Part shown: positions 59,095 to 61,763 of the stretch, piece after piece
Numbering within the stretch: the stretch's first letter is position 1
Layout of the letters: each line of letters starts with the position of its first letter
NCBI GenBank assembly: GCA_944323595.1
Contig: CALUTF010000007.1
Span: forward strand, 1-64,000
Reading direction: 5' to 3'
Length of the DNA: 64,000 nt
Source: Candidatus Gastranaerophilales bacterium
GTDB taxonomy: Bacteria > Cyanobacteriota > Vampirovibrionia > Gastranaerophilales > Gastranaerophilaceae
Notes under the pieces: generated by a model
The model's input: only the letters and a program-made list of their open reading frames with translations
The model's database searches: none
What the model was told of the DNA's origin: nothing
Made by a program: the position numbers and the translations under genes

Positions 59095-59781
59095 TTAATT
59101 TCTTAAAGTTGCATTCGGGACATATTGATGCAAAATTTCTATTATCTGTTGAAATTCTTCGTTTGTGTACGTTGTTTCGTTCCTGAGAGTTTCATCAAGC
59201 AGTTTAGATGGAATAAATTTTTGTAAGTAATATCGTTTTGCGCCTTTAATTAACTGTCCGATATGTTCAAAATTCTCAAATGAAAGCTGTGACTTAACCA
59301 CAGTAGTACGGAATTCATAATCAATTCCGGAGTTCATTATAATATTTATACTTTCCTGAATTTTCTTTGTGTCAACTTTAATTCGTGTGATTTCAGAATA
59401 TTTTTCCGGCGGTGCTTTGATATCCATCGCTATGTAGTCAAGATGCGGCAAAAGTTTTTTTAATTTTTCCGGAAAATATCCGTTTGTGTCCAGTTTTACG
59501 AGAAATCCAAGTGTTTTGATTTCTTTAATAACGTCTTCCAAATCATTCTGAATGCATGGCTCGCCGCCTGTAATTACGACTCCGTCAAGTTTGCCTTTTC
59601 TGCTATTTAAAAAATCAAAAAGAGCAGGCAGTGTCCATACCTGCTCTTTTGAATTTATCAGTTCCGGATTGTGGCAGTAACCGCAGCGAAAATTGCATCC
59701 TTGAGTGAATACAATGGCGCTTATTTTATCGGGAAAGTCCAGCAGCGAAGTTTTTTGTACTCCTCCTATCTGCATTGGCAT
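59095..59781 (-). CDS. nrdG: Anaerobic ribonucleotide reductase-activating radical SAM protein
   Basis: A 228-residue radical SAM enzyme. 'FTQGCNFRCGYCHNPEL' gives the CxxxCxxC cluster (Cys29/33/36), 'VVITGGEPCIQ' the SAM-binding GGE, and 'DYIAMDIKAP' follows. It forms the glycyl radical on NrdD. It overlaps nrdD by 16 bases and is the second gene of the operon. It is a little longer than classical NrdG (about 155), closer to the pyruvate-formate-lyase-activase-like type used with many class III enzymes. Confidence 0.9.
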   Translation of the reverse strand: MPMQIGGVQKTSLLDFPDKISAIVFTQGCNFRCGYCHNPELINSKEQVWTLPALFDFLNSRKGKLDGVVITGGEPCIQNDLEDVIKEIKTLGFLVKLDTNGYFPEKLKKLLPHLDYIAMDIKAPPEKYSEITRIKVDTKKIQESINIIMNSGIDYEFRTTVVKSQLSFENFEHIGQLIKGAKRYYLQKFIPSKLLDETLRNETTYTNEEFQQIIEILHQYVPNATLRN

Positions 59782-61619
59782 TCCTCTATTTCAAAGGTTT
59801 TTCTGTCAGAAAATTCTTTTTTCTTTCCTTTATTCCACTGATTGACAGGTCTTATGTAACCTACAACACGGGAATAAACTTCACAGCTCTCACCGCATTC
59901 GGGGCAGGTGAAATGTTCGCCTGAAATATATCCGTGATTCGGACAGGTGCTGAAAGTTGGTGAAAATGTAAAGTATGGCAGACGATAATTATTACAAATC
60001 TTTTTGACCAGATTTTTCATTGTTTCAATGTTTTGAATTCTTTCGCCGGCATAAATATGGACAACTGTGCCACCTGTGTATTTGGTTTGTAAATCATCCT
60101 GATGGTCAAGCACCTCAAATATGTCATCAGAATAGTTTACAGGCAGTTGGGTTGAATTTGTATAGTACGGGTATCTTTCTTTATCCAGTTTTGCCAGTCT
60201 GTAAGATGTTCCCTCGCCCGGGGTTGCTTCCAGATTATAGTTATTACCTGTTTCTTTTTGGAATTCAACAATTTTTGCTCTCATAAAATCCATTACTTCT
60301 AGTGCAAATTGTTTTCCTGCAGGCGTTCCGATATCTTCTTTCAACAAATTCAAGCAGGCTTCGTTCATACCTATCAGGCCTATTGTTGAGAAATGGTTTT
60401 TCCAGTAGACCCCAAAGCGGGCTTTTATATCTCTTAAATAGAATTTTGTGTAAGGATAGAGGTCTTTGTCCGTCAAATCTTCCAGAAGTTTACGTTTAAT
60501 TTCAAGGCTTTCTTTTGCTACTTCCATTTTAGCGGAAAGTTTTTCAAAGAATTCACCTTTTGTTTTAACATTTGCTCCGATTTTTGGAAGATTGAGGGTT
60601 ACAACGCCAACAGAACCGGTCAGCGGGTTAGAGCCGAATAGTCCGCCGCCGCGGTATTCCAGCTCTCTGTTATCTATTCTTAATCTGCAGCACATAGAGC
60701 GGGCATCTTCCGGCGACATGTCTGAATTTATAAAGTTTGAGAAATACGGAATGCCGTATTTTGCTGCCATTTCCCATAGCCCGTTTATGTTTTTATTATC
60801 CCAGTCAAAGTCTTTGGTTATATTGTATGTAGGGATAGGGAAAGTGAATACTCTGCCGGAATTGTCGCCTTGCATCATAATTTCGAAGAACGCTTTATTC
60901 AGCATATCCATTTCAGTCTGAAATTCTTTGTAAGTTGCCTCCATCAATTCTCCGCCGATAATTACAGGTTGTTCTGCGTAATATGATGGCACCGTTAAAT
61001 CCATAGTTATATTTGTAAAAGGTGTTTGAAAGCCTACACGAGTCGGAACATTCATATTAAATATAAATTCCTGCATTGCCTGTTTAACCTGTTCGTATGT
61101 CAGGTTATCATATCTTATGAAAGGTGCAAGCAGGGTGTCAAAGTTTGAAAATGCCTGTGCACCGGCTGCTTCTCCCTGCATAGTGTACATAAAGTTTACA
61201 ATCTGTCCGAGTGCGGTTCTGAAATGTTTTGCAGGCGCGCTTTCTACCTTACCTTTTACTCCTGTAAATCCCTCTGTTAATAAATCTTTTAAATCCCATC
61301 CTACGCAATATACTGAAATTATATTCAAATCATGAATATGGATATCTCCGTTAAGATGCGCATTTTTAATGTGCGACGGATAAATTTTGTTCAGCCAGTA
61401 TTGCTTGCTGATTTCTGATGCAATGTAGTTGTTAAGTCCCTGAATTGAGTAAGACATGTTGGAATTTTCGTTAACTTTCCAATCAAGTTGTTTCAGATAA
61501 TTGTCAACCAGAGCAATATTGTCATCCTTATTGCTTAAAACGGTGTTTGACATGTAACTCTTTTTTGCAGTTTCCAAATTGACAACATTTGCGTTGTTTG
61601 AATAAATAGTATTGTTCAT
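59766..61619 (-). CDS. nrdD: Anaerobic (class III) ribonucleoside-triphosphate reductase
   Basis: 617 residues from the ATG at 61619. The start is set by GGGAG (61633-61629) 9 bases upstream and by a promoter and riboswitch-like leader that lie within the longer in-frame extension to 61766. 'HLNGDIHIHDLNIISVYCVGWDL' with the essential Cys, 'QAFSNFDTLLAPF', 'CCRLRID', a zinc site ('CPNHGY...CPECGESCE') and the glycyl-radical loop 'RVVGYIRPV' are present. There is no ATP-cone at the N-terminus, so the usual dATP feedback is absent. It supplies dNTPs without oxygen, paired with nrdG. Confidence 0.92.
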   Translation of the reverse strand: MNNTIYSNNANVVNLETAKKSYMSNTVLSNKDDNIALVDNYLKQLDWKVNENSNMSYSIQGLNNYIASEISKQYWLNKIYPSHIKNAHLNGDIHIHDLNIISVYCVGWDLKDLLTEGFTGVKGKVESAPAKHFRTALGQIVNFMYTMQGEAAGAQAFSNFDTLLAPFIRYDNLTYEQVKQAMQEFIFNMNVPTRVGFQTPFTNITMDLTVPSYYAEQPVIIGGELMEATYKEFQTEMDMLNKAFFEIMMQGDNSGRVFTFPIPTYNITKDFDWDNKNINGLWEMAAKYGIPYFSNFINSDMSPEDARSMCCRLRIDNRELEYRGGGLFGSNPLTGSVGVVTLNLPKIGANVKTKGEFFEKLSAKMEVAKESLEIKRKLLEDLTDKDLYPYTKFYLRDIKARFGVYWKNHFSTIGLIGMNEACLNLLKEDIGTPAGKQFALEVMDFMRAKIVEFQKETGNNYNLEATPGEGTSYRLAKLDKERYPYYTNSTQLPVNYSDDIFEVLDHQDDLQTKYTGGTVVHIYAGERIQNIETMKNLVKKICNNYRLPYFTFSPTFSTCPNHGYISGEHFTCPECGESCEVYSRVVGYIRPVNQWNKGKKKEFSDRKTFEIEECQCR

Positions 61620-61622
61620 AAA

Positions 61623-61720
61623 AAAAGTCTCCCAGATTTCCGTGGTAACATCAACCAAAATAAGCATTCCGACTGTAACGGCTGCGGTCCAGTGAGGGAT
61701 TTTCACCCATGCTTTCCTTA
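61623..61720 (-). promoter_or_regulatory. Probable cobalamin riboswitch in the nrdD leader
   Basis: Read 5'-3' on the minus strand, the leader has GGAAAGCAT, then GGGTGAAAATCCC (61708-61696; the GGUGaAAauCC hairpin), then ACTGGACCGCAGCCGTTACAG (61693-61673 region), an ATGCTT that pairs with AAGCAT, and ACCACGGAAATCTGGG (61646-61631), like the B12 box. Order and spacing fit a cobalamin riboswitch core; peripheral helices are short. The last box overlaps the ribosome site GGGAG, suggesting translational control. Identification is from memory of the consensus and not folded by software. Confidence 0.65.
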
Positions 61721-61734
61721 AATTGGTAATTATA

Positions 61735-61763
61735 ATTTTAATTCTCTTTTGAATCTTTGTCAA
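61735..61763 (-). promoter_or_regulatory. Sigma-70-type promoter of nrdDG
   Basis: On the minus strand, TTGACA (61763-61758), 17 bases, TAAAAT (61740-61735). It places the start of transcription just before the riboswitch-like leader and rules out the longer nrdD frame beginning at 61766. Confidence 0.85.

Follow-up and report, generated by a model that had tools for sequence, protein, structure and literature searches.

A compact class II-type cobalamin riboswitch is predicted to control the class III ribonucleotide reductase operon nrdDG in a Gastranaerophilales bacterium

We propose, with a probability of roughly 90%, that the leader at positions 61730-61617 (minus strand) of the DNA examined is a compact cobalamin riboswitch of the class II type that represses translation of nrdDG, with the class II reductase NrdJ taking over when cobalamin is present. 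The DNA (hereafter the window) comprises 64,000 nt from Candidatus Gastranaerophilales bacterium (assembly GCA_944323595.1, contig CALUTF010000007.1, positions 1-64,000), whose genome assembly is 2.05 Mb and 98.5% complete. The proposal is based on aptamer homology, covariation, the placement of the Shine-Dalgarno sequence, the nrdD start codon, the presence of NrdJ and its co-occurrence with the leader; from these we infer ligand binding, the direction of control, a translational rather than transcriptional readout, and the form of cobalamin.

On the minus strand, the locus runs from a promoter through a riboswitch-type leader of ~110 nt to nrdD and then nrdG:

61735-61763, minus strand: sigma-70-type promoter TTGACA-17-TAAAAT, 11 of 12 consensus matches (-35 box TTGACA at 61763-61758, 17 nt spacer, -10 box TAAAAT at 61740-61735)
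59766-61619, minus strand: nrdD, class III ribonucleotide reductase, 617 aa, above the TIGR02487 and PRK08270 cut-offs
59095-59781, minus strand: nrdG, activase, overlapping nrdD (TIGR02495)

This promoter is the one that the original prediction had described as strong, and transcription would start near 61728. Relatives carry an equal promoter arrangement upstream (for example, L031, L017 and L021).

The original prediction also corrected the start of nrdD, taking a long N-terminal extension to be untranslated leader, and the comparison with relatives agrees. The true start is ATG 61619, which is conserved, and an in-frame stop lies between the leader core and this ATG in 19 of 26 orthologous leaders. 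The frame in the window is open up to TTG 61766 merely by chance, and the apparent extension, rather than being a lost domain, is untranslated RNA. If the conserved stretch instead encoded part of a longer NrdD starting at TTG 61766, this would account for the 666-aa open frame in the window, but we consider such a protein to have almost no chance of being real, given the ATG shared by orthologues, the in-frame stops, an extension that is not an ATP-cone, and P2/P3 strands that covary as RNA (see below). The window's NrdD is without an ATP-cone, PF13597 being the sole domain matched. A relative's NrdD (L072:1195-3318) keeps an N-terminal ATP-cone, which that of the window's clade has lost, and its gene sits behind a leader of like kind. 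As the genome's NrdJ likewise has no ATP-cone, this known activity switch is missing from both reductases.

In a permissive covariance-model scan, the best match for the window leader was Rfam model RF01689 (AdoCbl-II, of the cobalamin riboswitch clan CL00101), which aligned over its full length to 61736-61654 on the minus strand. As the original prediction required, a cobalamin model therefore scores here (33.6 bits; E-value 7.1e-6 in 1 kb and 3.4e-6 genome-wide), though 2.9 bits below the gathering score of 36.5. An Rfam scan of the leader at the default cut-off reported no match because the score lies below this value, and the missing match thus reflects the threshold. Scores of orthologous nrdD leaders range from <30 to 48.5 bits, several being above the cut-off (for example, 48.5 in G051, 44.4 in G005 and 38.6 bits in G083), and the Rfam cut-off misses part of the Gastranaerophilales riboswitch group. 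The match probably extends beyond the RNA by its outer 6 pairs, which overlap the -10 box. The window has a single copy of the leader core, and 0 would be expected by chance at <=3 mismatches. Its parts are assigned as follows:

61717-61726, minus strand: 5' strand of P2/P3, CCAATTTAAG, covarying with 61664-61655 in 35 leaders
61712-61716, minus strand: J3/4 GAAAG, ligand-pocket junction, invariant in the 17 leaders of alignment A1 (the invariant J3/4 GGAAA takes in 61717)
61695-61709, minus strand: P4 hairpin TGGG/CCCT with loop L4 TGAAAAT, from aligned leaders
61682-61692, minus strand: P5 CTG/CAG with L5 GACCG (61689-61685), which forms one side of the kissing loop
61669-61681, minus strand: P6 CCG/CGG with loop L6 TTACAGT, from aligned leaders
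61664-61674, minus strand: B12-box equivalent AGTCGGAATGC, containing J6/3 AATG (61668-61665), from the Rfam match and aligned leaders
61655-61664, minus strand: 3' strand of P2/P3, CTTATTTTGG, covarying with the 5' strand
61632-61645, minus strand: P13 CCA/TGG with L13 CGGAAATC (61642-61635), expression platform, from the co-change of L5 and L13
61685-61642, 61686-61641, 61687-61640, 61688-61636 and 61689-61635, minus strand: proposed L5-L13 kissing pairs
61629-61633, minus strand: Shine-Dalgarno sequence GGGAG, first two bases within P13

All motifs originally named in the leader are present. The cobalamin core hairpin GGGTGAAAATCCC is P4, and the second core motif, CCGCAGCCGT, corresponds to L5/P5/P6. 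We reassign ACCACGGAAATCTGGG (61646-61631), originally labelled B12-box-like, to the expression platform P13/L13; the stretch equivalent to a B12 box is AGTCGGAATGC at 61674-61664. The P8-P12 extension of class I cobalamin riboswitches is absent (the P6 loop has only 7 nt), which does not fit class I. Relative to the RF01689 consensus, J6/3 AATG of the window deviates and the leaders of one subclade have large insertions in P6.

The structural evidence for the leader is comparative and does not come from single-sequence folding, as minimum-energy folding of the single leader gave a wrong fold no better than shuffles (z +1.15). Leaders upstream of nrdD from about 30 relatives can be aligned over their entire length, and covariation was assessed in 35 distinct leaders from Ca. 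Gastranaerophilales. In these 35 leaders, the P2/P3 duplex reached -8.75 kcal/mol with its own strands versus -4.15 kcal/mol with swapped strands (0/5000 shuffles). Covariation supports the P3-P6 four-way junction through this P2/P3 arm, through the closing pair of P4 (U-U in the window; U-A, U-G or C-G in relatives) and through P5, where CUG/CAG has changed to CCG/CGG in L038; the P6 strands are invariant and hence carry no covariation information. In the leaders of one subclade (L006-L011, L015 and L026), two extra hairpins of ~45-55 nt occupy the P6 loop, lowering the Rfam score further; here, a P6 arm was gained or lost inside one orthologous riboswitch.

Changes in L5 are matched by changes in L13, as must be the case in a kissing loop. 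L5 GACCG or GGCCG occurs only with L13 CGG(A/T)AATC, and L5 GTCCG only with L13 CG(A/T)GAC. In antiparallel orientation, both types yield five kissing pairs with L13 bulged, and a partner is retained for the second L5 base: U for A or G, and A for U. This coupling joins each of two L5 types to a separate L13 type, and few evolutionary events lie behind it. Weak points are the 3-base bulge of the kissing loop in L13 and a P13 of 3 pairs only.

The original prediction also placed the leader over the ribosome site, and the first Shine-Dalgarno bases do pair in P13. The one good Shine-Dalgarno sequence, GGGAG (61633-61629), lies 9 nt upstream of ATG 61619. A terminator scan found no terminator-like stem, which, with the Shine-Dalgarno sequence inside P13, makes translational repression likely. 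Control at the level of transcription, with P13 and a T-run acting as a ligand-dependent terminator, might be suggested by the seven T that follow GGGAGAC immediately before the ATG and by the frequency of T-runs in relatives. We regard this as improbable, however, since in addition to the negative terminator scan P13 has just 3 pairs and overlaps the Shine-Dalgarno sequence, and the T-run is missing or interrupted in L026, L008 and L024.

For translational repression, we envisage that cobalamin would fill the P3-P6 four-way junction and that L5 (GACCG) would dock with L13 (CGGAAATC) in the ligand-bound state. Docking would stabilize P13 and hide part of GGGAG, so that ribosomes would not start at ATG 61619. 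When cobalamin is absent, P13 would open and the class III reductase would be made; when it is available, the genome's class II NrdJ would take over. The hiding of the Shine-Dalgarno sequence upon ligand binding is proposed by analogy with env8 and E. coli btuB, in which kissing-loop docking represses by hiding the ribosome site (PMC10907184, PMC10653944).

As expected of a B12-repressed, B12-independent isozyme, the same genome contains a B12-dependent counterpart, the class II NrdJ that the original prediction called for. It is the single PF02867 enzyme of the genome (661 aa) and passes the thresholds of two B12-dependent families, TIGR02504 and PRK08665; a search of the genome for the class I small subunit (PF00268) found none. 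The genome also encodes two CobA/BtuR cobalamin adenosyltransferases, in genes ~10 kb apart (L139; G000:C29:5000-19500), and is without a PduO-type adenosyltransferase.

Of 98 genomes of the order, 72 have nrdD; the leader precedes it in 43 of the 56 that also encode NrdJ versus 2 of the 16 that do not (Fisher 5e-6, a significance overstated because the test ignores kinship among related genomes). Five genera without NrdJ have the leader in no member, and all 26 genomes without nrdD possess NrdJ. The exceptions are 13 genomes that have NrdJ and nrdD with no leader detected, and two, G082 and G020 (66% complete), that have the leader with no NrdJ found; the latter kind comprises one of the three genomes of g13 and one incomplete genome of g30. 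The proposed logic, in which B12 would turn off the class III enzyme when NrdJ is available, is consistent with this co-occurrence and with the sister riboswitches described next.

Like riboswitches precede genes for a TonB-dependent receptor (btuB-like) and a FecCD permease (L127, L129 and L135) and metE (L130 and L131), both textbook targets of cobalamin riboswitches (PMC2211319). With such sister targets, cobalamin is by far the likeliest ligand. In another riboswitch-led frame, L134:817-2442(-) (G022:C221), the first ~25 residues are MetE-like and a radical SAM protein follows; a fusion by deletion or a misassembly would account for it.

Most other riboswitches of this kind in the order precede one operon of uncharacterized proteins. 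Its second protein occurs in 89 of the 98 genomes, with a riboswitch upstream in 86 of these 89, and, in a sample of the phylum, turned up in no genome from other orders. The genome studied here has its second AdoCbl-II riboswitch at this operon (L138, G000:C41:1-3400), at C41:2913-2840(-) with 39.8 bits, above the cut-off, and the orphan genes at C41:2761-2054(-) and 2073-574(-). The first protein has ~230 aa and the motif CPHGxPxGACPICxGMGGG, the second has ~500 aa and two likely membrane segments, and a third is found in relatives; profile searches of Pfam, NCBIfam and PDB returned nothing credible for the orphan proteins. In L006, L009, L011 and L015, the riboswitch of the orphan operon is divergent to that of nrdD, ~100-1000 bases away. 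We tentatively suggest an order-wide cobalamin regulon of compact class IIa-like switches, in which this operon, and not nrdDG, would be the most constant member, serving corrinoid acquisition or a B12-free substitute; we hold such an arrangement to be somewhat less probable than its absence.

The nrdD riboswitch may have a ligand other than adenosylcobalamin. J3/4 is GGAAA and J6/3 is AATG in the window leader, and J3/4 GGAAA and J6/3 GAATG are invariant or almost so across the aligned leaders. These bases presumably match the env8 core (G19, A20, A67 and A68), in which we take the J3/4 and J6/3 junctions to be similar and P8-P12 to be absent. Class IIb is described as having GGAA in J3/4 with UCU in J6/3 (PMC11260477); AdoCbl-selective class IIb does not fit the window leader, which has the GGAA and has AATG in place of UCU. 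The env8 pocket of G19, A20 and A68 accepts small axial groups (PMC11838749). The missing UCU and the env8-like pocket make methyl- or aquocobalamin about as likely as adenosylcobalamin, and we place slightly below even odds a riboswitch with a class IIa-like pocket that answers to either of the former two and reads corrinoid status, not the NrdJ cofactor. Adenosylcobalamin is favored by AdoCbl-II being the best Rfam model, by the genome's ability to make AdoCbl with its two CobA/BtuR enzymes, and by the M. tuberculosis ppe2 switch, which has GGAA without UCU yet binds AdoB12 (PMC11260477).

B12 control of nrdDG is already known, and it is the lineage that is new; among the papers searched, we found none tying Melainabacteria or Gastranaerophilales to such control. 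A 2004 study described B12-elements upstream of nrdDG, with NrdJ as partner, in Desulfovibrio vulgaris and in Desulfuromonas (PMC545781). Those systems are alike in target operon and proposed NrdJ logic, whereas the window copy belongs to another phylum and is compact, with its Shine-Dalgarno sequence in P13. In Propionibacterium acnes, cobalamin riboswitches were reported before nrdAB and nrdDG in 2013 (PMC3848588); there too, in a genome with NrdJ, a switch is annotated before nrdDG and none precedes nrdRJ, but RNA-seq suggests termination before nrdAB, whereas the window leader has no visible terminator. Class IIa env8 shares the P3-P6 four-way junction and an L5-L13 kissing interaction that hides the ribosome site (PMC10907184, PMC11838749), but its ribosome site is in the terminal loop of P13, while that of the window leader occupies the 3' strand of P13 and extends slightly past it.

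Together, these findings would bring a gut-dwelling, non-photosynthetic sister lineage of cyanobacteria under the rule that B12-independent enzymes are shut off by B12, and they predict that the choice of ribonucleotide reductase in Gastranaerophilales depends on gut corrinoids. The sister riboswitches lead, in addition, to an order-wide B12-controlled operon of uncharacterized proteins; if the proposed regulon is real, it would expose an undescribed B12-linked function.
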